58,635 bases of DNA from Deltaproteobacteria bacterium (GTDB lineage: Bacteria > Myxococcota_A > Polyangia > JAAYKL01), in assembly GCA_030595125.1 (NCBI GenBank), contig JAUVDV010000029.1:1-58635 (forward strand), written 5' to 3'. The notes under the pieces are model-generated. The model was not told the DNA's origin and ran no database searches. It saw only the letters and a program-made list of their open reading frames with translations. The translations under genes were made by a program, and so were the position numbers. Position 1 is the stretch's first letter, and each line of letters opens with the position of its first letter. This document shows positions 8,475 to 58,635 of the stretch, piece by piece.

Positions 8475-10469
8475 CTAGTAACCGTTTACAATAACAAAAT
8501 CCGACGGATGGGGTGCGGGCACACGGATGAAACCCACCGGATCGTGATCGATGGGTTCCCGCTCGACCGCGCAGGCTTCGTTCTCGCACACCAGGGTCTC
8601 CAGCCAGTGGTACCGCAACACCACGTCCTCGTCGGGTCGCGTGCCCGTTACCTCCAGACGGTTCATGGACGCCTCCACCCTTCCGTCATTCACGGCGAAG
8701 AAACTGACCGGCACCTTTGTCTTGTAAACCCGGTGACGCGGTATCCCCTCATCGTCGTAGGGCGGAATCCCCCCGAGGGGCTCGAGCAGGTCGGTGTTGT
8801 CCTCGAGCTTCTTGGCAGAAGTCATTATCACCCACTTGACCGCGTAGTCCTCTAAATAGATGCGCAGCTCCTCGGTAGGCAGATCGCCCTCCTCGTCCCG
8901 CCGGAAGAGATCCGCCGCTGTGTGCATCAGGTTGCGCTCGTGAAAACCTCCCAATATCTGGGACTTTGTTCTCCAGGCCAGATGCTCGCCGAGCACGTAC
9001 CATTCCACCAGCACCCTGCCCTGTCCGTCGTCGTTCTCGATGAGAAAACGGGTGACGTCGTTCATATCCTGGTAGTGCGGCTCGTGCCGCAAATCCATTT
9101 GCTTGTGGAAACCGGCCCCCGGAAGATTCTTGCCGAACACCTTTTGATCTCCAGTGGGCACGGGCATCACCTCGTGCAGCGGCTTGAGGGAGGGAAGGAA
9201 CCCGGGGAAAAAGTAAAGCACGTCCCTGGCCAGAGCAGGAACCGTGACGAAGAGCATGATCCCCATGACCACGTACGCCAGGCGTGGCAACTTGCGCAGG
9301 CTCTTCGATCGAATAGCTCGCGCCAGGAAGTTCGCGCCGGGGATCACCGTCAGGAATATAGCGGGCAGTATGAAGCGATACGGTTGAACCTGCTTGGTGA
9401 GCCACACATAGCTCCCGAGATATGTAACGGCGAAGGTGGCGCCCAGCGCCACAGCGAAGGGCAAAAATCGATCGTCCCGCTTCTTTTTCCAGAAATACAG
9501 GGTGATGATCGATCCCAGGATACCGATCAGCCGAAACGCCGTACGGTTGCTCAGCACGCCGGAAACCAGCGGATCCGCGCCGATCAACCCAAGGTAGTCC
9601 GTGAGCAGATATCCCACCCCTCCCTGAAAACAGTACCCGGAATCCAGAATGTAGTGCCAGAACCGAAGCGCGACGATCAACCAGTAAGAGTTGGCGGCAA
9701 GGGTGAACGCGGCGATTGCCCAGACCCCCACGTGCCGCCTGATGGATATCTGCCTGAAAGACCGAGCGTACATTGCAAGCATGGGCAGCGCCGCCACCGC
9801 GAAGGTATACGGATGCACGAGGTGGGCTGCCGCGAGCACCACCGCGCAGGCTGCCGCGCGCCAGGCCTTGCCGTCATCCAGAAATCGATACAGCAGTGCA
9901 ATCGGCAGGAGCGACAGGTACCCGGCCATGGCCCAGGAGGTCATCCCTATCCAGGTGCACCACCGGGGAAAACCGTCGAAAAACCAGATGGACATCCCCA
10001 TGGTCATCGCCAGGAGCGCCGCCCATCTGTCGAGCCTGAACAACCTGGCCGAGGCGAACACGACCCAGGGGACCAGGATGTGGGACAGGAGAATGAACAT
10101 GTTGAAAGCCAGCCCCCTGGGAAGCCCCAGCTTCCAGAGCGCGAAGGTCCACAGCTCCCACCCCTTGTTGTCCGCATTGAAAATGATTCCATTGGGGTGC
10201 CCGGCCAGCAACTGATGATCGTACGCCCAGCTCTTGCCCCATCCGTCGAGGGCTTCGGTCACGCGCCAGACCTGCGCGATGTGAGTGTCGAAATCGAGCC
10301 ATGAGATCGGATCGTTACTGAAGATAACCCGGGGTCTCTCGACGTAAAACGTGAGCGCGAGATGCACGATCATCACAATCGCGAAAGCGATCACAAACGC
10401 GAGGCGTTTGGGCCGGGCCTCCCGCTTTGCTTCTTCGCTATGTGGCACGGTTTCCGTTTCGACGCTCAT
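8475..10469 (-). CDS. Large polytopic membrane protein, GT-C glycosyltransferase-like
   Basis: This 664-residue protein has one N-terminal membrane segment, then an extended loop with the acidic motif WLDFDTH, then about ten further hydrophobic segments up to about residue 420, and a soluble C-terminal domain of about 230 residues. Acidic residues just after the first membrane helix and a C-terminal extracytoplasmic domain are the layout of GT-C fold glycosyltransferases that use lipid-linked sugars, and of the related 6-pyruvoyl-tetrahydropterin synthase-related membrane proteins. Substrate unknown. It is transcribed away from the alkaline-phosphatase-type operon at 10568, with which it shares a 98-bp intergenic region, so both may act on envelope glycoconjugates. 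Confidence 0.65.
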   Translation of the reverse strand: MSVETETVPHSEEAKREARPKRLAFVIAFAIVMIVHLALTFYVERPRVIFSNDPISWLDFDTHIAQVWRVTEALDGWGKSWAYDHQLLAGHPNGIIFNADNKGWELWTFALWKLGLPRGLAFNMFILLSHILVPWVVFASARLFRLDRWAALLAMTMGMSIWFFDGFPRWCTWIGMTSWAMAGYLSLLPIALLYRFLDDGKAWRAAACAVVLAAAHLVHPYTFAVAALPMLAMYARSFRQISIRRHVGVWAIAAFTLAANSYWLIVALRFWHYILDSGYCFQGGVGYLLTDYLGLIGADPLVSGVLSNRTAFRLIGILGSIITLYFWKKKRDDRFLPFAVALGATFAVTYLGSYVWLTKQVQPYRFILPAIFLTVIPGANFLARAIRSKSLRKLPRLAYVVMGIMLFVTVPALARDVLYFFPGFLPSLKPLHEVMPVPTGDQKVFGKNLPGAGFHKQMDLRHEPHYQDMNDVTRFLIENDDGQGRVLVEWYVLGEHLAWRTKSQILGGFHERNLMHTAADLFRRDEEGDLPTEELRIYLEDYAVKWVIMTSAKKLEDNTDLLEPLGGIPPYDDEGIPRHRVYKTKVPVSFFAVNDGRVEASMNRLEVTGTRPDEDVVLRYHWLETLVCENEACAVEREPIDHDPVGFIRVPAPHPSDFVIVNGY

Positions 10470-10567
10470 CGCAGGAGAGTATATTGACTAATTGCTCATC
10501 ACACCATAATCCGCACATGCAAAGTCTGAAATTGAGCAGAAACCGGTAAGCTGATACATCTTTCCGG

Positions 10568-11953
10568 GTGTCACACCTCCGAACCATAGCTCTGCTGTCA
10601 ATCTTTGCGGCAGCCGCCCTTTGCGCGTGTTCCGGATCGGACTCTTCTGAACGATCGGCTCCGAAAAAAGTCGACAGCAGGCTCCTCCTGTTCGGAGTGG
10701 ACGGCGCCACGTGGGATCTGATGGATCCGCTCCTGAAAGAGGGACTCCTTCCCAACTTCAAAAAGCTGATCGACCACGGCGTGAGATCTCCTTTAAAGAC
10801 CTACAAACCCACCCTCTCCCCACTCATCTGGACCACCATCGCGACGGGGTTTGCGCCAAAAAAACACGGTATCGAAGGGTTCACCGCAAAGGTCCGGGGC
10901 ACGGACGAAAAGGTGCTGGTCACGAGCAACATGCGCAAGGTCAAGGCCGTGTGGAACATCCTGTCCGAACACGAAAAGACCGTCGGGGTGATCGGCTGGT
11001 GGGCGTCGTACCCCGCCCAGAAGGTGAACGGCTTCGTCATCTCCGATCAGGCCGGCACGCTGCGCAAGGAGAACTACCGCATCGCGCTGGATCTGAAACC
11101 TGCCGCCGACGATGACAAAATCGATCCCAAAACCACCTGGCCCCCTTCCCTGGCCACGGAATTGAAAGATCACCTGAGACTGTCTTCCAAAATCGATGCG
11201 GCGATCATCGATCGTTTTTTCGAGCTTGACGCAAAGCAACGAGAAGAACTCGCGCAAGACGGCATCGTGGACAAGGAAGACATCCTGTCCATTTTCAAGT
11301 TTGCCTACCTCATCGACCGATCGTTCATCGACTCCGGCCTGGTTGCCCTGGAAAAACACAAACCCGATTTCGGGGCGCTCTACCTGAACGGTCTCGACGC
11401 TGCCGAACATCATTTCTGGAAGTACTTCGAGCCGGGCGAATTTGAAAACGTCCGCGAGGAGGATATCGCCAGATACGAAAAGGTCATTCGCCGATACTAC
11501 GTTTACATGGATGAAATTCTCGGACGCTTGATGAAGCTTTATCCTCTGGAATCATCGACGATCATGGTGGTCTCGGACCACGGCCACGAGGCGAACGCAA
11601 ACTACGATCCGTCATCATCCAACCATTACAACCGCATCTGTTCGGGGGGACATGAGGAAGCCCCCGACGGCGTCTTCATTATGGGCGGCGTCCTCGCCGG
11701 CCGAGGCAAGATCCCCGCGCCAAATGTGTTCGACGTAACGCCGACGATTCTCACGCTGATGGGAACTCCCGTGGGACGGGACATGCCCGGAAAGACCGTC
11801 ATGGAGTCCATCGATCGAAAATTCCTGGGGTCCCATCCCCCGACGAAGGTCAATACCCACGGGCCGAACCCGTTCTTCTCGCAAGCGCCCGTCCCTTCCG
11901 CAATGAACGACGCACTCAAGGAGAAACTCAGAGGGCTTGGCTATATCGAGTGA
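10568..11953 (+). CDS. Alkaline-phosphatase-superfamily phosphodiesterase lipoprotein
   Basis: The start is GTG at 10568, followed by a lipoprotein signal peptide (lipobox LCAC). The domain begins with LLLFGVDGATWDLMDP, the metal-binding Asp motif of type I phosphodiesterase/nucleotide pyrophosphatases (COG3379-like). The segment TLSPLIWTTIATG supplies the expected Thr nucleophile, and VVSDHGHEAN supplies the paired metal ligands Asp-His near residue 340. A His metal ligand is also present in GGHEEAPDG. It probably hydrolyses a phosphodiester or phosphonate outside the cytoplasm. No SD sequence is visible, but TGATACATC lies 7 nt upstream, compatible with a leaderless transcript. It is followed after 19 bp by a coiled-coil membrane protein gene. 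Confidence 0.85.
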   Translation: MSHLRTIALLSIFAAAALCACSGSDSSERSAPKKVDSRLLLFGVDGATWDLMDPLLKEGLLPNFKKLIDHGVRSPLKTYKPTLSPLIWTTIATGFAPKKHGIEGFTAKVRGTDEKVLVTSNMRKVKAVWNILSEHEKTVGVIGWWASYPAQKVNGFVISDQAGTLRKENYRIALDLKPAADDDKIDPKTTWPPSLATELKDHLRLSSKIDAAIIDRFFELDAKQREELAQDGIVDKEDILSIFKFAYLIDRSFIDSGLVALEKHKPDFGALYLNGLDAAEHHFWKYFEPGEFENVREEDIARYEKVIRRYYVYMDEILGRLMKLYPLESSTIMVVSDHGHEANANYDPSSSNHYNRICSGGHEEAPDGVFIMGGVLAGRGKIPAPNVFDVTPTILTLMGTPVGRDMPGKTVMESIDRKFLGSHPPTKVNTHGPNPFFSQAPVPSAMNDALKEKLRGLGYIE

Positions 11954-11972
11954 AGCTCATAGGATTACGCTC

Positions 11973-12791
11973 ATGAACACTACCGCATGGAAAAAGATCG
12001 AGACCGTCCTCCTGGTGCTGCTGCTCATCACCACCGCCGGACTCGGCATCTATCTTGTAACAGCCGTCGGTCAGATCCGGAGCCGGCTCGGCCGGCTGGA
12101 AGACGAGGTCTTGGATCTGGCACACCCTGACGGCGCCACAAGATCCGCTGCAACGAGAATGAAGAAGATGTCGGCCGACATGGCCGACCTCACGGACCGG
12201 TTAGAGGCGCTGGATGACCGCATCGGCGCGATCCTTCTCAAGGCGCGGGCAAACTCCAAACGCCTGGACAGCCTGGAGGCGGGAGATCTATCCGACCTGG
12301 GACTGGGTGCGCTCATCGACAGGAAACTGCAAGGGGGAGCGCAGGGCGCGGGTCCGTTGGGATCTTTCGCGGGCCGCGACATAGATTCGATCGGCGACAA
12401 GATCCAGCTCACCGATCTGCAGCGGCGTCGCGTCGCCAACTTGATGGACAAGGCAAAAGAGGATGTCATGGACGTGCTCACGGCAGCTCGACAGGAGGAT
12501 CCCGAGCTGGTCGAGTACATCGGAAACGTCATGCGCTCGGGCGAGGACATAAAGAGTGTCGCCAACCAGCTCCTCCCCAAACTCTTTAACAACAACGTAC
12601 CGGGCACCGACGAGAGCTACTTCTCCGCCCTTCTGGATATTCGCCATAACGCCACCGCAGACTTCGGAAACATCCTGTCTGCCGATCAGCTGAACGCTTT
12701 TGGCAAACTGGAAATAGACATATTCGGCATCGGCACGGGCTACTCGCCGTTCAAGAAAGAAGGAGAAAAACTGGCGACGGAGAACCAGTGA
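11973..12791 (+). CDS. Membrane-anchored coiled-coil protein
   Basis: ATG at 11973 is chosen because AGGA lies 8 nt upstream and a membrane helix (VLLVLLLITTAGLGIYLV) follows directly. An in-frame extension up to 11937 would overlap the previous gene without an SD. After the single helix, residues 30-100 show heptad spacing (RSRLGRLEDEVLDL and MADLTDRLEALDDR), so a coiled coil outside the membrane is likely. The C-terminal half is helical (DLQRRRVANLMDKAKED) and recalls Spy/periplasmic-stress helices, but no family is certain. The stop overlaps the GTG of the next gene, so the three genes 10568-14182 form one operon. Confidence 0.65.
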   Translation: MNTTAWKKIETVLLVLLLITTAGLGIYLVTAVGQIRSRLGRLEDEVLDLAHPDGATRSAATRMKKMSADMADLTDRLEALDDRIGAILLKARANSKRLDSLEAGDLSDLGLGALIDRKLQGGAQGAGPLGSFAGRDIDSIGDKIQLTDLQRRRVANLMDKAKEDVMDVLTAARQEDPELVEYIGNVMRSGEDIKSVANQLLPKLFNNNVPGTDESYFSALLDIRHNATADFGNILSADQLNAFGKLEIDIFGIGTGYSPFKKEGEKLATENQ

Positions 12792-14182
12792 CCCGCAGGT
12801 CCACCACACCCCGAATCGGCATCGCGTTCACCGGCGTCGTCCTGCTCGGGCTGGTCGCCGCGGGGATAGCGTACAAGCTGACGGGCGATCCCTATTCGAC
12901 ACAGCCCGATGTGGTTTTCATAGTCATGGACATGGTTCGCTCTGATCGTCTGTCCATGTGCGGCCACAACCGCCCCACGTCACCGGTGCTCGATGCCCTC
13001 GCTGAAAAACCGGGCGTCCTGGCAACCTGCAACGCTTACTCGCCAGGCACATGGACCCTCCCGAGCCACGCCAGCTACTTCACTGGCGAGGAGGTGCCGG
13101 TCCACGGCGCAGACTGCATTCTCAAACCCGACGGAGTGGACTCGGTCTCCCTGTGGGGCGATCCGGTTCGCCCCCTGACCGGGAACATTCCAACTCTTGC
13201 GCAGAGAATGCGCGACCGGGGATACAGGACCGTGATGGTATCCGGCAACCCGGTGGTTTCGCGATGGGCGGCCACCGGCCTGGATCGCGGTTTTCAGGTA
13301 CTTCGCGAATCCAGACAGTTCGGAGATCTCTACGGAGACGACCTCGTGGCCGCGCTGAAGAGCGCGCTTTTAGAAGTAACCGACGATGCCCCTCTCTTCC
13401 TGTTCATCAACATCGCCGACGTTCACCATCCCTGGCTACCCGTCCCGAATGATCTCGAATGGGTACAACCGCGCCCGTTCCTGGACAACCGACCCAGAAT
13501 TCCCGACAACCCCTATCCGCGATTTTTCAGGGACGAGATGACCGATGAGGAGAAGAAGAACTTCCTGGCTCACGCAAACGATTCTTATGACTACGCTGTG
13601 TGGAGAGCGGACAACACCCTGGGTCGGGTGCTCGAAATACTGAAGAAGCGCGGCACGACAAGGAGGCCGCATCGCCTGATCGTCACCAGCGATCACGGTG
13701 AGTTCCTCGGCGAGCACGATCTCCTCTCCCACGGGATTTTTGTATACGAGCCCGACACCCGCGTGCCTCTGGTTTTCGCGTCTTCGACTCCCTCCTCTTC
13801 CTTCAAAACCTCCAGACCCATGACTGCGCTAGCGTCTTACGATCTGGCCCTCGATGGTGCGCTCAGAGACATCCCCCGCCCCGTACGCGCTGCGGGATAT
13901 CCGGACGGCCTCCTGAGCAAGCTGTTCGGTGACAAACTCACGGCCACGACCGCTGCTCAATGGAACGGCGACGAGAAGTTGTTTTACTTGAACGGAGAGT
14001 ACTCCGTCTTCAATCTGAAAACGGACCCGGGCGAACTCGCCCCCCGCCCCATGCCCAATAGTCACCCCCTGAAAAAACGCTTCGAAGGCTTCGTAAAGCA
14101 AATCATGAAGACCTCTCGTCGAAAGACCGAACCGTCAAAAGAGATGATCGAAGCACTGCGCGCGCTGGGCTACGTGGAGTAA
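12788..14182 (+). CDS. Membrane-anchored sulfatase-like hydrolase (Thr at nucleophile position)
   Basis: GTG at 12788 overlaps the preceding stop (GTGA). One N-terminal membrane helix precedes the domain. VVFIVMDMVRSDRLS is the first metal-binding block; TLPSHASYFTG aligns with the sulfatase signature C-x-P-S-R but has Thr in place of the Cys or Ser that is converted to formylglycine, and His in place of Arg. Later, VTSDHGEFLGEHDLLSHG supplies the conserved Asp-His metal site and the downstream His. Thr at this position is usual in phosphoethanolamine or phosphoglycerol transferase-like members, so transfer or hydrolysis of a phospho-group is more likely than sulfate ester cleavage. Its operon partner is another alkaline-phosphatase-fold enzyme. 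Confidence 0.8.
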   Translation: MTRRSTTPRIGIAFTGVVLLGLVAAGIAYKLTGDPYSTQPDVVFIVMDMVRSDRLSMCGHNRPTSPVLDALAEKPGVLATCNAYSPGTWTLPSHASYFTGEEVPVHGADCILKPDGVDSVSLWGDPVRPLTGNIPTLAQRMRDRGYRTVMVSGNPVVSRWAATGLDRGFQVLRESRQFGDLYGDDLVAALKSALLEVTDDAPLFLFINIADVHHPWLPVPNDLEWVQPRPFLDNRPRIPDNPYPRFFRDEMTDEEKKNFLAHANDSYDYAVWRADNTLGRVLEILKKRGTTRRPHRLIVTSDHGEFLGEHDLLSHGIFVYEPDTRVPLVFASSTPSSSFKTSRPMTALASYDLALDGALRDIPRPVRAAGYPDGLLSKLFGDKLTATTAAQWNGDEKLFYLNGEYSVFNLKTDPGELAPRPMPNSHPLKKRFEGFVKQIMKTSRRKTEPSKEMIEALRALGYVE

Positions 14183-14212
14183 CCGGACGCCCCATACTCT
14201 CGTAATGTTTTT

Positions 14213-15199
14213 TTACGGACAGCCCGCTGGAACCGGCGTGCAGGAGTCGTCGAGATTGGATTCGACATGTATCGACGTGGGAGTGCTGGTGAGCTGGTCC
14301 AGAACGTCGCACACCTCGCAGTCGGGAAGAACGTCGTTGCCGTATATATGAAAGTCTTCACTCACCGAAGTAAGAGCGACAAGCCCGTCCAGGTCGGTGA
14401 GGGCATCGTTGAAGCGGATCTCCAAGTCCCAACCCACCGAGTTGATGTTGCTAAGGCCGTCAAGGTTGGTGAGGGCGGCGTTGCCTTCGATGTGCAAGGT
14501 CTGGCCCACAGAGGTGATGCCGCTCAGCCCGTCCAGGTTTGTAAGGGCGTCGTTAAAGGAGATTTCCAAGCCCTCACCCAGCGAGGTGAAAGCGCTCAGC
14601 CCGTCCAGATTTGTGAGCACGTCGTTCCATGTGATGCTCAACCACCCGACCACCGAGGTGAGTGCGCTCAAGCCGTCCAGGCTGGCGAGGGCGTTGTTAA
14701 CGCCGATTGTCACAACCCCGCCCACAGAGGAGAGGGCGCTTAGACCGTCCAGATTGACTAGGGCGGGGTTGCCAATAATGCCCAAAGACCAGCCTAGCGA
14801 GTTGAGAGCGCCAAGGCCGTCCAGGTTGGTGAGGGCGGCGTTTTCCACGATCATCAAGTTCCCGCCCACAGAGGTGAGGCAAACCAACTCACTCAGGTCA
14901 ATGCACGAAGGGCACTCGATTCTAAGCTCTCCAGAGATCGAGGTGTATCCCGCGAGGGCTGCAACTTGCGCCTGTGTTGTGATGATAAGATCGCCGCTGT
15001 ACACTCCTAGATTACAATCGGCATCGGTATCCGTGTCGGTATCCGTATCCGTGTCTGTATCCGAGTCGGTATCGGTGTCGGTATCGGTGTCGGTATCGGT
15101 GTCGCCACCGTCGGTCCCACCGTCACTGTTCGACGAACCGTTCGAGCACCCGCCGAAAACCAGCAAAGTCGCCAGCGCTATCAAAAACAAGGATCGCAT
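14213..15199 (-). CDS. LRR (receptor-L-like) lipoprotein with Asp-Thr linker
   Basis: A signal peptide with lipobox FGGC is followed by a DT/DS linker at about residues 28-60. A capped repeat domain then contains seven copies of a unit of about 24-25 residues of the form ALTNLDGLSALTSVGG, each followed by an inward strand. This resembles receptor L-type leucine-rich repeats. The cap segments (LAGYTSISGELRIECPSC and LPDCEVCDVLDQL) are almost the same as in the protein at 43569-44582, so these are paralogues. It probably mediates binding outside the cell. The ATG is preceded by GGCGGGGG and by the shared promoter/leader cassette. Confidence 0.85.
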   Translation of the reverse strand: MRSLFLIALATLLVFGGCSNGSSNSDGGTDGGDTDTDTDTDTDTDSDTDTDTDTDTDTDADCNLGVYSGDLIITTQAQVAALAGYTSISGELRIECPSCIDLSELVCLTSVGGNLMIVENAALTNLDGLGALNSLGWSLGIIGNPALVNLDGLSALSSVGGVVTIGVNNALASLDGLSALTSVVGWLSITWNDVLTNLDGLSAFTSLGEGLEISFNDALTNLDGLSGITSVGQTLHIEGNAALTNLDGLSNINSVGWDLEIRFNDALTDLDGLVALTSVSEDFHIYGNDVLPDCEVCDVLDQLTSTPTSIHVESNLDDSCTPVPAGCP

Positions 15200-15237
15200 T
15201 CCCCCGCCTTTCGTTTTGCACGTAGGAGTATTCTATA
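15200..15237 (-). promoter_or_regulatory. Conserved promoter/leader cassette, copy 1
   Basis: On the minus strand a TAGAAT -10 box (15235-15230) is followed 31 nt later by the ATG. The leader carries ACGTGCAAAACGAAAGGC and GGGGGA as the SD. The same arrangement occurs at 42964, 43533 and 54984. Confidence 0.6.
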
Positions 15238-15253
15238 ATGCTACGTGGAATAA

Positions 15254-16324
15254 TCACTCACAATAGACGACGCCCTCGGTTCCCACCGCGAACACTTCGC
15301 CGGTCTGCGCCACCCAGACATCGTTGAGCGGAAAGTCGAACGGGCCGGTCACTTTGGACCATGAAGAACCGTTGTAGTGGAGAACCACGCCACCGGATCC
15401 TTCTTTGCCCACGGCGAAGATGTCCGACGACGACCGCCCTCCGATGCCGGTCAAGGTGACATTTGCGCCATCAGAGCCAAGTGAAACCTCGCTCCACCCT
15501 CCGGCATCCTTGTGGAACATGGACGCATCGGCCCCCATGACCATGCTACCTACCGCGTGGATATCCGTGGAAGAGCTGCCCCATATCGCCTCCAGTGAGG
15601 AGAGCATCGCCAGTGTCGTCGCCTCGGAAGACCAGCCCGATCCGTTGTAGTGGAGGATCGCACCACTCCCCACCACATAGACGTTGCTGCCAGAGGTGCC
15701 CCACACATCGGCCGGGAGGGTGGTCGTTACCGGGATCCCCGACATCTCCGTCCACCCCGAACCGTCGTAGTGCGCGACCATCGGTGACAGAAGACCCCCC
15801 ACTGCGAAAACGTCGTCGCTCGACACGCCCCACACTCCGTTGAGGAAATCGGCAATGCCGATGACTGTTTGGGTCCAGTCCAACCCGTTGTAGCGGAGGA
15901 CGAGGTCAAGCTCTCCGACGATGAACACGTCTGTGGCGCCGGTCCCCCAAACTCCGCGAAGCCCCACCGCCCCGATCCCCGGATTCAGCGCGTTCCATGA
16001 GCCATCGTGGTAGTGGAACACCGTGGTTTCCACCAGAGTGTCGCCGCCCACCATGAACACATCGTTCGCGGACGCCCCCCATACAGACGAAAGGGAAGCC
16101 GAGGTGTGTACATTCCACGCGCAGGGAAAATCGGTGTCCGTATCGGTGTCTGTGTCTGTATCTGTGTCTGTGTCGGCATCTGTGTCGGCATCTGTATCCG
16201 TATCAGTATCGGTGTCCGTGCCCGTATCGCCCACCCATCCCAGGGGTACCACCCTGTCGCAGCCCACCGCACAACAGGAGGCAACTATAACGGCGAGAAC
16301 AGTTGTAGGAATTGCACGTGTCAT
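15254..16324 (-). CDS. Seven-blade beta-propeller lipoprotein with Asp-Thr linker
   Basis: ATG at 16324 starts a good signal peptide (MTRAIPTTVLAVIVASC, lipobox AVGC); an in-frame GTG 33 nt upstream would add a polar extension and has no SD. After a (DT)n/(DADT) linker, seven repeats of the form VWGASANDVFMVG alternate with strands such as HYDGSGWTEM. Seven such units fit a closed seven-blade propeller. Similar Myxococcota proteins are annotated only as lipoproteins. No catalytic residues are visible; a binding role is more likely. TACAAT lies 6 nt before the ATG, so the mRNA may be leaderless. Confidence 0.8.
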   Translation of the reverse strand: MTRAIPTTVLAVIVASCCAVGCDRVVPLGWVGDTGTDTDTDTDTDADTDADTDTDTDTDTDTDTDFPCAWNVHTSASLSSVWGASANDVFMVGGDTLVETTVFHYHDGSWNALNPGIGAVGLRGVWGTGATDVFIVGELDLVLRYNGLDWTQTVIGIADFLNGVWGVSSDDVFAVGGLLSPMVAHYDGSGWTEMSGIPVTTTLPADVWGTSGSNVYVVGSGAILHYNGSGWSSEATTLAMLSSLEAIWGSSSTDIHAVGSMVMGADASMFHKDAGGWSEVSLGSDGANVTLTGIGGRSSSDIFAVGKEGSGGVVLHYNGSSWSKVTGPFDFPLNDVWVAQTGEVFAVGTEGVVYCE

Positions 16325-16489
16325 GAAAATATTGTATCGGCTCGACCAGTTACTCACAATAACAACGAGCCTCTCATGATTTGGGGGGGTATTAATGTAT
16401 TTAGAACGCTACTTTCATAAAAAAAGATTCCCCAAAAGGACTTTACGAGTATACAATTTTATCAAACAATTCCAATCCAATCAAAGCGA

Positions 16490-19400
16490 ATGGAGTGCGA
16501 TGTGAATTATAAAGCAATACAACTATCGGTGATATTGGTTCCATGCTTTCTATTGATCCAATGTTCCAACGACCCAGCCGATCCGGACTTTGATTCCGGA
16601 ACCGGCGACACGGATACTGATACGGATACCGATACTGACACGGACACCGATACCGATACGGACACCGATACGGACACGGACACCGATACCGATACGGACA
16701 CCGATACCGATACTGACACCGATACCGATACCGATACGGACACCGATACCGATACCGGCACGGACACGGGAACGGATACGGGAACGGATACGGGAACGGA
16801 TACGGGAACGGATACCGACACGGACACCGATACCGATGTAGATGCCGGACCGGATGGCGGCGGGGACGCAGGACCGATCGATCTCTGCCCGGGTGATCCT
16901 CTCAAAACAGATCCCGGTGTTTGTGGTTGCGGTGTCCCGGATGTGGACATCGATCTCGACAGCACAATGGACTGCCTGGACACCTGCATCGATCTGGATG
17001 GCGACGGATACGGTTTGCCCGGGGGCGCGGGAGACACCTGCCTCGGCGCGGACTGCGATGATGATCCATCCGCATGCGGCGCGGGTTGCTATCCCGGGAA
17101 CACCGCTCTGGATATTTGCGACACCTACAACCAGGATTGCGATGGCTTTGTTGACGAGGACCCGGACCTCACCTGGTACGAGGATTCCGACGGCGACACT
17201 TTCGGCAATCCTGCTGTTTCCTCAACCGTTTGCGCAGCCCCGGGTGGTTATGTCGCGGACAACACCGACTGCGACGACGACACTTCCGCGTGCGGCGCCG
17301 GTTGTTATCCAGGAAACACCGCTCTGGATATTTGCGACACTTACAACCAGGATTGCGATGCCTTCGTCGACGAGGACTCGGACCTCACCTGGTACGAGGA
17401 TTCCGACGGCGACACTTTCGGCAATCCTGCCGTTTCCTCAACCGTTTGCGCAGCCCCGGGTGGTTATGTCGCGGACAACACCGACTGCGACGACGACACT
17501 TCCGCGTGCGGTGCCGGTTGCTATCCCGGTAACTTGGCTCCGGATATTTGCGACACTTACAACCAGGATTGCGATGCCTTTGTCGACGAGGACCCGGAGT
17601 TTACGTGGTACGCCGACACCGACGGCGACGGCTACGGTGATTTAACGGTCCCGACCGACGCATGCACCGCTCCACTGGGTTATGTCGCGGACAACACCGA
17701 CTGCGACGACGACACTTCCGCGTGCGGCGCCGATTGCTATCCCGGTAACGTGGCTCCGGATATTTGCGACACTTACAACCAGGATTGCGATGCCTTTATT
17801 GACGAGGACCCGGACGTAACCTGGTACGAGGACTCCGACAGTGACACTTTCGGAAATCCCGCTGTAACCATAATTGCTTGCGCAGCTCCGGTCGGATATG
17901 TGGCGGACAACACAGACTGCGACGACGACACTTCCGCGTGTGGCGCTGGTTGCTATCCCGGTAACACCGCTTTGGATATTTGCGACACTTACAACCAGGA
18001 TTGCGATGCCTTTGTCGACGAGGACCCGGAGTTTACCTGGTACGCCGACACCGACGGCGACGGCTACGGTGATTTAACGGTCCCGACCGACGCATGCACC
18101 GCTCCACTGGGTTATGTCGCGGACAACACAGACTGCGACGACGACACTTCCGCGTGCGGCGCCGGTTGCTATCCCGGTAACTTGGCTCCGGATATTTGCA
18201 ACACTTACAACCAGGATTGCGATGCCTTTGTCGACGAGGACCCGGAGTTTACGTGGTACGCCGACACCGACGGCGACGGCTACGGTGATTTAACGGTCCC
18301 GGCCGACGCATGCGCCGCTCCGTTTGGTTACGTCGCGGACAACACCGACTGCGATGACGACACTTCCGCATGCGGCGCTGGCTGCTATCCCGGTAACGTG
18401 GCTCCGGACATCTGCGACACATACAACCAGGATTGCGATGCTTTTGTTGACGAGGACCCGGACATAACCTGGTACGAGGACTCCGACGGTGACGGTTACG
18501 GTAATTTCATGGTCATGACCATCGCGTGTACCGCTCCGGTCGGTTATGTCGCAGACGACACGGACTGCAACGACTCATACGACGGCTGCTGGCAACTCGG
18601 TGTCGAAACCGCAACATGCGATCCCAATTGCACCTCCGCCATCTGTGGCGACACATACCCCAACGCCACCGCCGGAGAGGCTTGCGACGACGGAACCAAC
18701 GATGGTTCCTATGGTACCTGCATGCCCGGCTGCGGCGCTCTGGCCCCATACTGTGGAGACGGAGCCACCGAGCCTGGTGAGGAAGATTGCGACGATTCCG
18801 GCGAGTCCGCAACCTGCGACTCGGATTGCACCTTCGCTGTTTGTCCGGATGGCATCCTCAATACCACCGCCGGGGAGATCTGCGATGAGGGCGGCGACAC
18901 TGCGGCCTGTGACGGAGACTGCACCGGGGTCCTGTGCGGCGACATGTATATCAACGGCGTCGCCGGAGAGGCTTGCGACGACGGAACAAATAACGGTTCC
19001 TATGGCACCTGCATGCCAGGCTGCGGCGCTCTGGCCCCCTATTGCGGAGATGGAATCATCGATCCTCCCGATGAGGAGTGCGACGGAGATCCCGATTGCA
19101 ATACCGATTGCACATGGGACTTCTACTGCTCGTACGTCAGCCCCGGAACCCTCTCGAGTACGACAGATTGCGATCTCACAGTTCTGGGTAACGGTTTCGA
19201 TACGGACATGACGGTCACTCTCATTGGACAACCGCCACTAAACCCGTTGGTCGACATCGCCGTGCTCAACCCCTACTGGCTCATGAGCACGGGTTCCATC
19301 TCGCTGGTGGCGGCTACCCTGGGATTGAACGACGGCACCTACCAGGTCGTGCTCGACAACGTGGCCGATGGCGAGACGGCTCTTTGCGCCGACACGGTCG

Positions 19401-55020: not shown

Positions 55021-55749
55021 ATGCGATATTTGCTGTTGATGATTCTGGCGACAGTGCTGGTGTGCGGTGGGTGTAGTGATGATGATGGCATCGGTGGAGG
55101 TGGGGACTCGGACTCTGACTCCGATTCAGACACTGACACGGATACAGACTCGGATACAGACTCGGACACCGACTCGGACACCGATACGGATTTTACTTAC
55201 GGTGTGTGCAAATTGAGCTGCACCGCACCCGCAGACTGCGTACCGGACACCCCCAACGAAACACATGACGCGGACAATTTCGACTGCACCGATGACGTTT
55301 GCACATGGAAGGGCTGTCTCAACACCGCCGAATGCGCAGTAGTGTTCCCCGGCATCACCGGCATCGCATGCGACACCAATGTGGACCCGCCGAAGTGCCA
55401 CGTACCTTGCTCCGCTCCCGCCGACTGCGCCCTTGACTCGTCAGCGGTACTCTATCCGATCTTCGGGTCCGACAACTCCACCTGCGACAACAGCCTGTGC
55501 GTCTGGACCGGATGCAACAACGACCAGGAGTGCGTCGACGCGTATCCCGCCAAAACATGGGTTTGCCATGAGTATTTGAATACCCCCATATGCGGCGTTG
55601 GCTGCACGACGCCGGCCGACTGCGCCTTGACGGATGACCTCTTCAACGAGGACCACTGGCTGTGCACTGACGGCGCCTGCGAGCACACGGGCTGCGCCTC
55701 CACCGCAGAGTGTATTTTCTACACCGCCGACCATGTCTGCGTGAAGTAG
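55021..55749 (+). CDS. Lipoprotein: Asp-Ser/Thr linker and three Cys-rich repeats
   Basis: The signal peptide MRYLLLMILATVLVCGGC matches that at 43000 almost fully. After a D[ST] linker (about residues 28-57), three tandem Cys-rich units of about 55-60 residues follow, with the pattern CTAPADCV...CTWKGCLNTAECAV, CSAPADCAL...CVWTGCNNDQECV and CTTPADCAL...CEHTGCASTAECI. No named domain is recognised. Regular spacing of Cys suggests three disulfide knots. The leader cassette is copy 4, and the upstream promoter region is copy A of the 38-bp duplication. Confidence 0.78.
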   Translation: MRYLLLMILATVLVCGGCSDDDGIGGGGDSDSDSDSDTDTDTDSDTDSDTDSDTDTDFTYGVCKLSCTAPADCVPDTPNETHDADNFDCTDDVCTWKGCLNTAECAVVFPGITGIACDTNVDPPKCHVPCSAPADCALDSSAVLYPIFGSDNSTCDNSLCVWTGCNNDQECVDAYPAKTWVCHEYLNTPICGVGCTTPADCALTDDLFNEDHWLCTDGACEHTGCASTAECIFYTADHVCVK

Positions 55750-55775: not shown

Positions 55776-55813
55776 CCCAAATAATGACTTCCACTCCTTG
55801 GAAAGGGTATGAT
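55776..55813 (+). promoter_or_regulatory. Duplicated 38-bp promoter region, copy B
   Basis: This copy has ATGACT and TATGAT at 18-bp spacing and precedes the 55841 gene. The downstream leader differs from copy A: the leader here holds GGAGGTGGGCGACA. Confidence 0.65.
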
Positions 55814-55840
55814 CGCCCCAATAGATGGAGGTGGGCGACA

Positions 55841-57115
55841 ATGATCGATATTAAATATCTTTCTCTGATCCTGGTCGTGGCCATCACCGCCTGCTCGAAC
55901 GACCCGACGGACAACATGGACGCAGGCTCCGATTCAAGCACGGACACAGACACCGATACAGACACCGATTCAGACACTGACTCGGACTCCGACACCGATT
56001 CTGACACCGACTCTGACACCGATTCTGACACCGATTCTGACACTGATACCGGACCTCCCGACCTGCCGCTAGGTTGTCAGGCGATCACACCGTGCACGAC
56101 AAACGGCGATGGGTGGTACGGTTGGGTCAATATGGACAACGATCACATGGTCTGGAAGTGGATCGATAATGGATTAATTCCTTCGGAGTACATTTTGATG
56201 AAACGTCAATTATCATCCGGTACACAAACCGAGGTTCTCAGGTCTGTTTCCCCCGTTGGAATTACGGGTCCCAGCATATACGGCGACAAGGTGTTCTTCG
56301 AAAGAGAAACAACTCCTGGAGACGCCGTTACAAGAGAAATCTTTGAAATCGATCTGTATGGAACTACCGAATCGCAAGTTACGTCGAATATTCAAACGGA
56401 CGGTTCCGTAGCCGCCGGTCAGAATTTCATTGTGTATTCATATGCCTGGCATCCGATTGCCGGTTACGAATCGGGCATCAAGTACTACGATCTCAACGCC
56501 CACACGGAAGGCTACGTCCTCCAGGGGGCAACTGGAAGCTGGACGTTCGCCTTCGACGGCGACCATTGGGTAGCGTTCGTCAACGACACACATCTCTACA
56601 AGTTCGACCTCAACAACCCCTCCGCCGGAGCGCAGATCATGTACCCCGATCCACTGGGAATCATGTGGATGTCCTTCAACGCAGTTACAAGTGAGATTGT
56701 TTCAGGCACATTTATTCCGGGTCTTACAGATAGCTACAGCCTGGATGCATGGGACATCAACACCAACGCAAGGACAACTCTTATAGATGATCCATGGGAT
56801 CAGATGGCCCCGGATGCAGACGGCCATCTGGTAGCCTATATTGATTCTCAGATAACCGGTGGCACTTGGCTTCCAAATCAACTGGGCCAGATAAAGCTGA
56901 TCGATAGAACAACCTCCGAGGTTCGCACGATCACGCCATTCGTCGATTACCAGTATAATCTAGCAATCTGGGACAGGTGGCTCGCGTTCAACAACGTGGG
57001 CATCTGGGGCGATGTGCTGATTCTCTGTGACCTGGAGGCTGGTGGGTTCATCGACACGAGCGGTCACGTGATTCCGGTGGGTAGTCCGGACGGCGGTGTG
57101 GATGGCGGGAAGTGA
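55841..57115 (+). CDS. TolB/propeller-like lipoprotein with Asp-Ser/Thr linker
   Basis: ATG at 55841 with GGAGG 9 nt upstream gives a signal peptide with lipobox ITAC. A long DSDT linker (about residues 27-70) leads to about 340 residues of beta-rich repeats with segments such as GPSIYGDKVFFERE, GQNFIVYSYAWHP and DGHLVAYIDSQITGG, like TolB-type or WD-type blades. It ends DGGVDGGK. It may bind carbohydrates or proteins; no catalytic site is seen. Confidence 0.75.
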   Translation: MIDIKYLSLILVVAITACSNDPTDNMDAGSDSSTDTDTDTDTDSDTDSDSDTDSDTDSDTDSDTDSDTDTGPPDLPLGCQAITPCTTNGDGWYGWVNMDNDHMVWKWIDNGLIPSEYILMKRQLSSGTQTEVLRSVSPVGITGPSIYGDKVFFERETTPGDAVTREIFEIDLYGTTESQVTSNIQTDGSVAAGQNFIVYSYAWHPIAGYESGIKYYDLNAHTEGYVLQGATGSWTFAFDGDHWVAFVNDTHLYKFDLNNPSAGAQIMYPDPLGIMWMSFNAVTSEIVSGTFIPGLTDSYSLDAWDINTNARTTLIDDPWDQMAPDADGHLVAYIDSQITGGTWLPNQLGQIKLIDRTTSEVRTITPFVDYQYNLAIWDRWLAFNNVGIWGDVLILCDLEAGGFIDTSGHVIPVGSPDGGVDGGK

Positions 57116-57186
57116 CGATTGCCGTGTGATGTTTGTCCTGCGCCGCTCGGCTTCTGCCGAGCTATGCAGGATGGCACGATTTGGAT

Positions 57187-57231
57187 TGGAGCGGGACACG
57201 AGATTTGAACTCGCGACTTCCAGCTTGGGAA
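57187..57231 (-). other. 3' fragment of tRNA-Gly (CCC), probable attachment-site scar
   Basis: Reading the minus strand from 57231 to 57187: anticodon loop TTCCCAA (anticodon CCC), 3' anticodon stem GCTGG, AAGTC variable loop, T-arm GCGAG-TTCAAAT-CTCGT, acceptor 3' strand GTCCCGC, T and encoded CCA. The 5' half (acceptor 5' strand, D-arm, 5' anticodon stem) is absent; the sequence changes exactly at the anticodon loop. Integrases often cross over there and leave such a 45-nt 3' remnant at the distal end of the element. Confidence 0.75.
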
Positions 57232-57274
57232 AACTCACGGCACTGAGTCCCACCGCGTATTCTTTACTCCTTAT

Positions 57275-57297
57275 GGCTCACTACAATCACTTGAGCC
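57275..57297. repeat. Inverted repeat next to the tRNA fragment
   Basis: GGCTCA and TGAGCC are 11 nt apart, 44 bp from the tRNA fragment, on the side where the presumed element lies. It may be an integrase arm-type or accessory site. Confidence 0.4.
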
Positions 57298-57355
57298 ACT
57301 CAGACTAACACAGATTCAGTAAAAGAGACTTTTCAAAGAGACCATTTGCCGTGAT

Positions 57356-57540
57356 CTACTCCGACTGCTCCTCGTCCTTTTCCGCCTTTTCTATGGTGAG
57401 ATCAGGAGCCGCATCGCGGGGAAACTTCTGCATCTTGCTGGGATTTGCAGGCCAAGTTGGTGGTCCAGAGTATGGCCGCCGAGACGAAAGACGAGGGCGA
57501 TGCTTCGTCCCGGCAAAACAAGTATGATCACGGCACGCAG
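57356..57540 (-). other. Low-complexity region, no clear gene
   Basis: A short minus-strand frame ends in FPRDAAPDLTIEKAEKDEEQ, which looks like an acidic C-terminal tail, but no start with an SD and no domain can be assigned. It may be a remnant of a gene broken on the element side of the attachment scar. Confidence 0.25.
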
Positions 57541-57845
57541 CGGTACCGATCACCGTCGGCGAAGTAGTTGTTGGTAGAACCCGCGTGATATTTGCCGCCC
57601 CAGACGATCATATCGTTGCCAATCCCTCCGCGGGGTGAACGGGACGGCGGATCGTCCAGGCATTCCCATACGACACAGCGGCGAAGTTCCTCATACACGA
57701 CCGCGACGGCATCTACGGTAAATCGTCGTTCACGGGCCTCCTTCACCGTGCGAGGTAATGGGAAAATGTCGGTCGGAAACTTCCGAACGGTGGGTGAAAC
57801 TACGCAGATGAATATTTGGGAGGCACAAGTGGCAATCGGAATCTG
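57541..57845 (-). pseudogene. Decayed kelch-like C-terminal fragment
   Basis: A minus-strand frame reads like a real protein C-terminus: CVVWECLDDPPSRSPRGG, then GNDMIVWGGKYHAGSTNNYF and a final RCVP before TGA. The DMIVWGG motif is typical of kelch-like blades in proteins of this group. No start codon with SD is found, and the frame upstream continues only as antisense of the next lipoprotein gene. The fragment probably came from deletion or insertion near the attachment scar. Confidence 0.45.
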
Positions 57846-57914
57846 CCCCCGATTTTTCCCCCCGTTCGGACACCATTGCCTATATAATTTGAATACAAAA
57901 AAAAGGGGTGCAAG

Positions 57915-58635
57915 ATGTTTATTCTTCGGACAAGCATCGTAGTCTGTCTGTTGATCGCCTTGGTTGTCGTCGGGTGCTCGGGCGATAGCGGCGGTGGTGG
58001 ATCTAGTGACTCGGATTCCGACTCGGATTCCGATTCCGACAGCGATTCTGATAGTGACTCCGATTCTGATACGGACACGGATACGGATACGGACACGGAT
58101 ACGGACACGGATACGGACACTGGAACAGGTGTAGAGTGCGAGGCCGACACCGAGTGTCCGCCCTGCGGTGAGTGCGACACCGACAACACCTGCCAGTTCG
58201 TTGCCAGCGGTGACGATCCCAAGGGCGACTGCGATCCCGATGTGCCGGAAACCTGCGGGCTGAACGGCGACTGTGACGGGTTTGGTGCCTGCGAGCACTA
58301 CTCCTCGACGACGGTGTGCGACGACACGGACCTGTGCACTCACAACGACAACTGCGACGGAATGGGCGGCTGCTCAGGGGACGTCATCGTGTGTGCGGAC
58401 GACCCGCCGCCGTGCGGCGTCCAGCGAACCTGCAACGGTTCGGATACCTGCACAGAGATCTGGCCCGGCTCGACGACCTCCTGCGACGACACGGACCTGT
58501 GCACTCACAACGACAACTGCGACGGAATGGGCGGCTGCTCAGGGGACGCCGTCGTGTGCGCGGACGACCCGCCGCCGTGCGGCGTCCAGCGAACCTGCAA
58601 CGGTTCGGATACCTGCACAGAGATCTGGCCCGGCT
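57915..58635 (+). CDS. Lipoprotein: long Asp-Ser/Thr linker, Cys-rich tandem repeats (3' end outside window)
   Basis: ATG at 57915 follows AAAAGGGGTG. The signal peptide has lipobox VVGC. The linker (about residues 31-70) is first DS then DT. A Cys-rich head (CPPCGECDTDNTC) leads into tandem 55-residue repeats with CDDTDLCTHNDNC and CGVQRTCNGSDTC. Repeats of this sort are common in extracellular Myxococcota proteins. The frame is open at the window edge, so the number of repeats is unknown. The A-rich 5' leader differs from the cassette found before other family members. Confidence 0.8.
   Translation, partial: MFILRTSIVVCLLIALVVVGCSGDSGGGGSSDSDSDSDSDSDSDSDSDSDSDTDTDTDTDTDTDTDTDTGTGVECEADTECPPCGECDTDNTCQFVASGDDPKGDCDPDVPETCGLNGDCDGFGACEHYSSTTVCDDTDLCTHNDNCDGMGGCSGDVIVCADDPPPCGVQRTCNGSDTCTEIWPGSTTSCDDTDLCTHNDNCDGMGGCSGDAVVCADDPPPCGVQRTCNGSDTCTEIWPG
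58316..58635 (+). repeat. 165-bp tandem repeats, nearly identical
   Basis: The unit starting at ACGACACGGACC (58321) recurs at 58486, a period of 165 bp (55 codons), with only a few base changes (for example GTCATCGTG against GCCGTCGTG). The window ends in the second unit. Confidence 0.9.

Follow-up and report, generated by a model that had tools for sequence, protein, structure and literature searches.

The window analysed here is the complete contig C30 (58,635 bases) of a deltaproteobacterial genome, G000. Close to its right end, we observe a 43-nt stretch on the minus strand (57189–57231) that matches the 3′ half of tRNA-Gly(CCC) exactly, from the anticodon loop to the discriminator, and that we treat as a candidate attR-type core half site. 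When the comparison is extended to 57186–57231, 45 of 46 positions are identical to the sole intact tRNA-Gly(CCC) in the genome (G000:C39:10396-10468), in agreement with a preliminary description that had placed a 3′ fragment of this tRNA at 57187–57231. An exact match over 43 nt is far beyond what chance can account for. The sole mismatch lies at the 3′ end, where the fragment reads TCCAA and the gene reads TCAAA, and because of this difference, the "CCA" of the fragment was probably not inherited from the tRNA gene on contig C39. It may be part of the tail of an adjoining hairpin repeat, which in the alignment accounts for TCCAA equally well as an encoded CCA. Of the extent first proposed, from anticodon loop to CCA, the start in the anticodon loop stands, whereas the CCA probably does not belong to it, as the gene reads CAA and the repeat tail can explain the difference.

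No tRNA is called at the fragment by ARAGORN, and a full-length Rfam alignment of the region scores 16.4 bits, where the cut-off is 29 bits. The 40 nt flanking the fragment bear only a faint likeness to the tRNA 5′ half, with 256 of 5000 shuffles reaching the same score. Judged by these shuffles, the resemblance is a chance one, and because the 5′-half match is no better than shuffled sequence while the 3′ half is exact, the homology ends in the anticodon loop, as originally described.

Genes and repeats on the two sides of the fragment

On the host side, immediately next to the fragment's 3′ end, lies a dispersed hairpin repeat (GTTTGTCCTGCGCCGCTCGGCTnCTGCCGAGCTATGCAGGATGGCACGA, 57131–57179), which genome copies and their alignment delimit. 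It is present at least 12 times in the genome and recurs in the two relatives of the same genus. This repeat, the fragment's own 3′ flank, matches no relative's tRNA flank. Next to it is a lipoprotein gene (55784–57115, plus strand) with an ortholog of 84% identity in the same-genus relative G001. In G001, an extra 383-aa ORF (L106 611-1762), Fic-like by eye, is situated between the orthologs of 55021–55749 and 55784–57115; this ORF is missing from the window.

On the other side, we assign 57232–58635 to element DNA, as this stretch is missing from the kelch-to-tRNA interval of G001 and continues across the contig join described below. It contains an inverted pair GGCTCA/TGAGCC (57275–57297) and an arm-type direct repeat (AATGGTCTCTTTGAAAAGTCTCTT, 57323–57346, minus strand) with 2 mismatches to a motif in the genome G012. 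The arm repeat is probably a binding site for an integrase or accessory factor, the GGCTCA/TGAGCC pair probably represents further recombinase sites, and an integrase would be predicted to bind AAAAGTCTCTTTGAAAAGTC. The spacer that follows (57346–57914) contains remnants only. Frame translation suggests a possible gene 3′-end remnant (PANPSKMQKFPRDAAPDLTIEKAEKDEEQSE-stop, 57356–57520, minus strand) that ends beside the arm repeat and has no Pfam or PHROG match. A kelch-like gene remnant (NDMIVWGGKYHAG..., 57528–57650, minus strand), seen in translation and flagged already in the preliminary description, is represented by a 75-aa piece with no Pfam match. An integrase remnant in the spacer was considered and rejected, there being no Pfam or PHROG match. 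From 57915 to 58635 (plus strand), the window carries the 5′ part of a giant lipoprotein gene, encoding a signal peptide, a Ser/Asp-Thr/Asp linker and Cys-rich repeats.

Probable contig join, relatives of the same genus and the proposed left boundary

Contig C30 ends within this lipoprotein gene, in a Cys-rich repeat whose only counterpart on another contig is at the end of C39 (95% over 319 nt). The remainder of the giant gene on C39 (17388–10686) runs in the direction matching the C30 part and encodes right-handed beta-helix domains, giving a product of at least 2,186 aa. After C30 is joined to reverse-complemented C39, the intact tRNA-Gly(CCC) lies ~8.3 kb downstream in the same orientation as the fragment, where the preliminary description had expected one, and the element continues on C39 as the reverse complement of 10469–17388. 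The join is supported by synteny in G001. There, the intact tRNA lies no more than about 0.5 kb past the ortholog of 55784–57115 on contig C100. The DAGK gene that precedes tRNA-Gly(CCC) on C39 is found in G001 on contig C136, one end of which shares an 83-nt overlap with C100, and the order kelch, tRNA, DAGK is as expected if C30 and C39 are neighbors. We infer from these comparisons that the two contigs are adjacent, and the adjacency is well supported. Because the repeat units are similar rather than identical, the gap between the contigs corresponds to an unstated number of repeats, and the element length of ~8.3 kb excludes this gap. The last ~95 bases of C39 (L017 about 17295–17388) are C-rich and unlike the repeat, and are probably an assembly-end artefact.

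The visible cargo of the element consists of the one giant beta-helix lipoprotein gene plus remnants. We find no ortholog of the giant gene in G001 or G002. An integrase gene, which the earlier reading had led us to look for, did not turn up: a Pfam search for Phage_integrase has no match on C30 or C39, that is, in the visible ~8.3 kb. Since it holds one giant gene and remnants and no integrase was found, the element looks decayed and CIME-like. Searches for a plasmid or phage origin returned matches of tRNA length only.

At this locus, G001 has no fragment, no insert and no giant gene. As an empty site, G001 fits only in part, because its flanks do not match those of a simple split. Had the target simply been split, element DNA would be expected to follow the intact tRNA, whereas on C39 the first 62 nt beyond the tRNA share 97% identity with fragment-free G001. 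At the C39 (left) end, we detect no arm repeat above chance. The left end of the element would lie at the tRNA, a tentative placement because the C39 tRNA flank is also present in element-free G001. Either the element was once present in G001 and has mostly been lost there, or later rounds of insertion and deletion rebuilt the locus (accretion). The same place holds a small lipoprotein gene in G001 and an aminotransferase gene in G002, while in G003 a tRNA-Gly(CCC) 3′ half lies 316 bp after the intact tRNA (L111 5846-6283) with an unrelated element flank. The differing gene in G002 and the 3′ half in G003 mark the tRNA-Gly(CCC) site, on these comparisons, as a hot spot.

A shared att flank in a second genus

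The decisive comparison is with G012 (JAFGXQ010000187.1), a Deltaproteobacteria MAG from another genus of the same family as G000. Here, a co-oriented 3′ half lies 979 bp beyond an intact tRNA-Gly(CCC), and the 3′ flank of this half is the flank that lies beside the intact tRNA in the congeners G005 and G013 (alignment scores of 61 and 76, respectively, versus shuffle maxima of 31 and 27). By these alignments, G012 is a textbook case in which the target was split and congeners retain the empty site, and it shows directly that att sites of this type arise from a divided target. The entire G012 element is a gene pair encoding a PIN toxin and an AF2212-like antitoxin. A HepT/nucleotidyltransferase toxin–antitoxin-like pair (L110 6449-7072) also lies next to the PIN/AF2212 cassette, on the host-facing side of the G012 fragment.

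On the element side, the G012 half is accompanied by AAAAGTCTCTTTGAAAAGTCTCTT and four GGCTCA/TGAGCC motifs at the right end. In the window flank, the 24-nt arm repeat recurs with 2 mismatches, together with two GGCTCA/TGAGCC motifs, and the arm-to-core spacing is 110 nt in both. The two flanks align with a score of 42, which is above all 2000 shuffles (maximum of 31). A search of 318 genomes of the class, allowing up to 3 mismatches, finds the arm motif in the window and in G012 and nowhere else. No copy was found in viral contigs, and a match in an Acidobacteria record was set aside as unrelated, with no tRNA nearby. With the arm repeat, the motifs and the spacing all shared with G012, the window fragment is an att half site of the element type seen there. 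In G012, a partial arm copy lies 68 nt after the intact tRNA, at the other end of its element. The left ends of the G000 and G012 elements show a weak similarity that 10 of 2000 shuffles reach, and we leave it out of the evidence.

Integration model, alternatives and known systems

Taken together, the co-oriented tRNA after the join, the absence of the insert from G001 and the arm-repeat flank shared with G012 at 110 nt argue for the integrase-scar reading of the preliminary description, for its crossover in the anticodon loop and for its placement of element DNA from 57232 onward. It is very probable that the fragment is an attR-type half site left behind by an integrase, and that the element, which would target tRNA-Gly(CCC), is the ~8.3 kb to the right of the fragment. 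The attP of this element would have carried the tRNA-Gly(CCC) 3′ half from the anticodon loop on, and a tyrosine integrase would have recombined it with the host tRNA gene by crossover in the anticodon loop; we infer both the enzyme and the mechanism. Recombination would thereby have restored an intact tRNA gene at one end and displaced the original 3′ half to the other (57189–57231), with the element extending over about 8.3 kb from 57232 to the end of C30 and then along reverse-complemented C39 to the tRNA. In its present state, it would be decayed or non-autonomous (CIME-like) and would move only with an integrase acting in cis by accretion or in trans. Several observations count against this model: no integrase was found in the visible 8.3 kb, G001 has the C39 flank in common, the C39 end shows no arm repeat above chance, the contig join contains a gap, and the hairpin repeat at the 3′ side of the fragment is unlike the flank of any relative's tRNA.

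The main competitor is a variant of this explanation, which we regard as possible though the less favored, in which the half site stems from an older or different element through accretion or serial insertion. The 8.3 kb insert would then result from later deletion and homologous recombination, and the tRNA-side DNA would be native or belong to another element. Such a history would fit the 62 nt after the tRNA that G000 and G001 have in common, the C39 end without a detected arm repeat and the different genes that G001 and G002 carry at this place (a small lipoprotein gene and an aminotransferase gene, respectively), and tandem CIMEs are common elsewhere (PMC7563491). However, it takes more events than a single integration and still requires a half site made by an integrase.

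The flank shared with G012 bears on the remaining alternatives as well. That the two sides were brought together by an assembly chimera through the 43-nt tRNA repeat is very unlikely: several tRNA-bearing contigs in these assemblies do terminate at tRNAs, but the tRNA half terminates both flanks regardless, and the flank to the right is a genuine att flank that also occurs in G012. An origin without an integrase, as a full-length tRNA-Gly pseudogene in decay or through local duplication of the tRNA, would be in keeping with the weak full-length Rfam match of 16.4 bits, yet the 5′ half is not significantly tRNA-like (256/5000 shuffles) next to a perfect 3′ half, and the same flank, with the same spacing, accompanies an independent half site in G012. 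The pseudogene was rejected on the first of these grounds, and we consider this origin highly improbable. The presence of CCA where the genomic gene has CAA could recall retroposition, that is, an insertion copied from the 3′ half of a mature, CCA-bearing tRNA. The difference amounts to one base, however, and the neighboring repeat tail accounts for TTGG, which led us to reject a CCA-derived retrocopy; as the conserved att-like flank does not fit the model either, such an origin is extremely improbable.

As an integrase scar, the fragment is of a known kind of mobile DNA and is ordinary in kind. In Islander, the tDNA and a displaced fragment mark the ends of an island, and about half of the catalogued islands cross in the anticodon region (2,083 anticodon-centred islands, with the attP termed site A, versus 1,836 at the T-stem side; PMC4383910). 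Like these islands, the joined locus has a co-oriented intact tRNA with a displaced 3′ fragment from the anticodon loop downstream at the ends of the insert, and its length of about 8.3 kb plus the repeat gap falls within the Islander range of 2–200 kb; unlike them, it contains no detected integrase on C30 or C39, the gap between the contigs being outside view, whereas the Islander filter demands one (PMC4383910). Classical CIMEs are decayed, integrase-less and att-flanked, and span 1.2–13 kb (PMC7563491). The window element resembles them in combining att sites and cargo within this size range; its right att with an arm repeat is present, and the integrase and a left arm were not found. It differs in that the CIMEs described in Streptococcus derive from ICE/IME decay (PMC7563491), while no parental ICE/IME is known for the window element. 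The G012 element also fits the integrase-less, att-flanked description, although it is slightly below the classical CIME size (PMC7563491). Outside the family, ICEs of Pseudomonas are known to integrate at tRNA-Gly(CCC) (PMC8704644). ICEbph-sal shares this target but has an 18-bp terminal repeat at the tRNA 3′ end in place of a 43-nt repeat from the anticodon loop, and at 117–130 kb with integrase and conjugation genes, it is unlike the ~8.3 kb window element (PMC8704644).

The interest of the fragment is modest and comes from an att flank that two genera have conserved around cassettes with no integrase. The fragment pins down the boundary of an accessory segment in a deltaproteobacterial family that has received little study, and it defines a diagnostic att motif, a half-tRNA with an arm repeat at 110 nt. 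This motif marks an element type that surrounds a toxin–antitoxin pair in one genus and a giant surface-protein gene in the other, with an integrase found in neither. The 8.3 kb giant surface-lipoprotein gene of G000 and the 979-bp PIN toxin/antitoxin pair of G012 might be members of a lineage-specific family of integrase-less cassettes with a common att arm, moved in trans between genera of the family by an integrase encoded elsewhere. We consider this unlikely; if true, the tRNA-Gly(CCC) site would be a cassette dock. In G006 and G009, from two other genera of the family, an intact tyrosine integrase gene directly follows tRNA-Gly(CCC) (L118 5030-6580 and L120 4995-6343), and the arm repeat was not found at these two loci. 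Finally, the source genome itself has tyrosine integrase genes directly after tRNA-Met(CAT), tRNA-Arg(CCT) and tRNA-Thr(CGT) (L180 1053-2330, L181 1522-2163 and L182 1497-2546, respectively). These three loci are probable further islands, and at tRNA-Met and tRNA-Thr, repeated motifs lie between the tRNA and the integrase gene.
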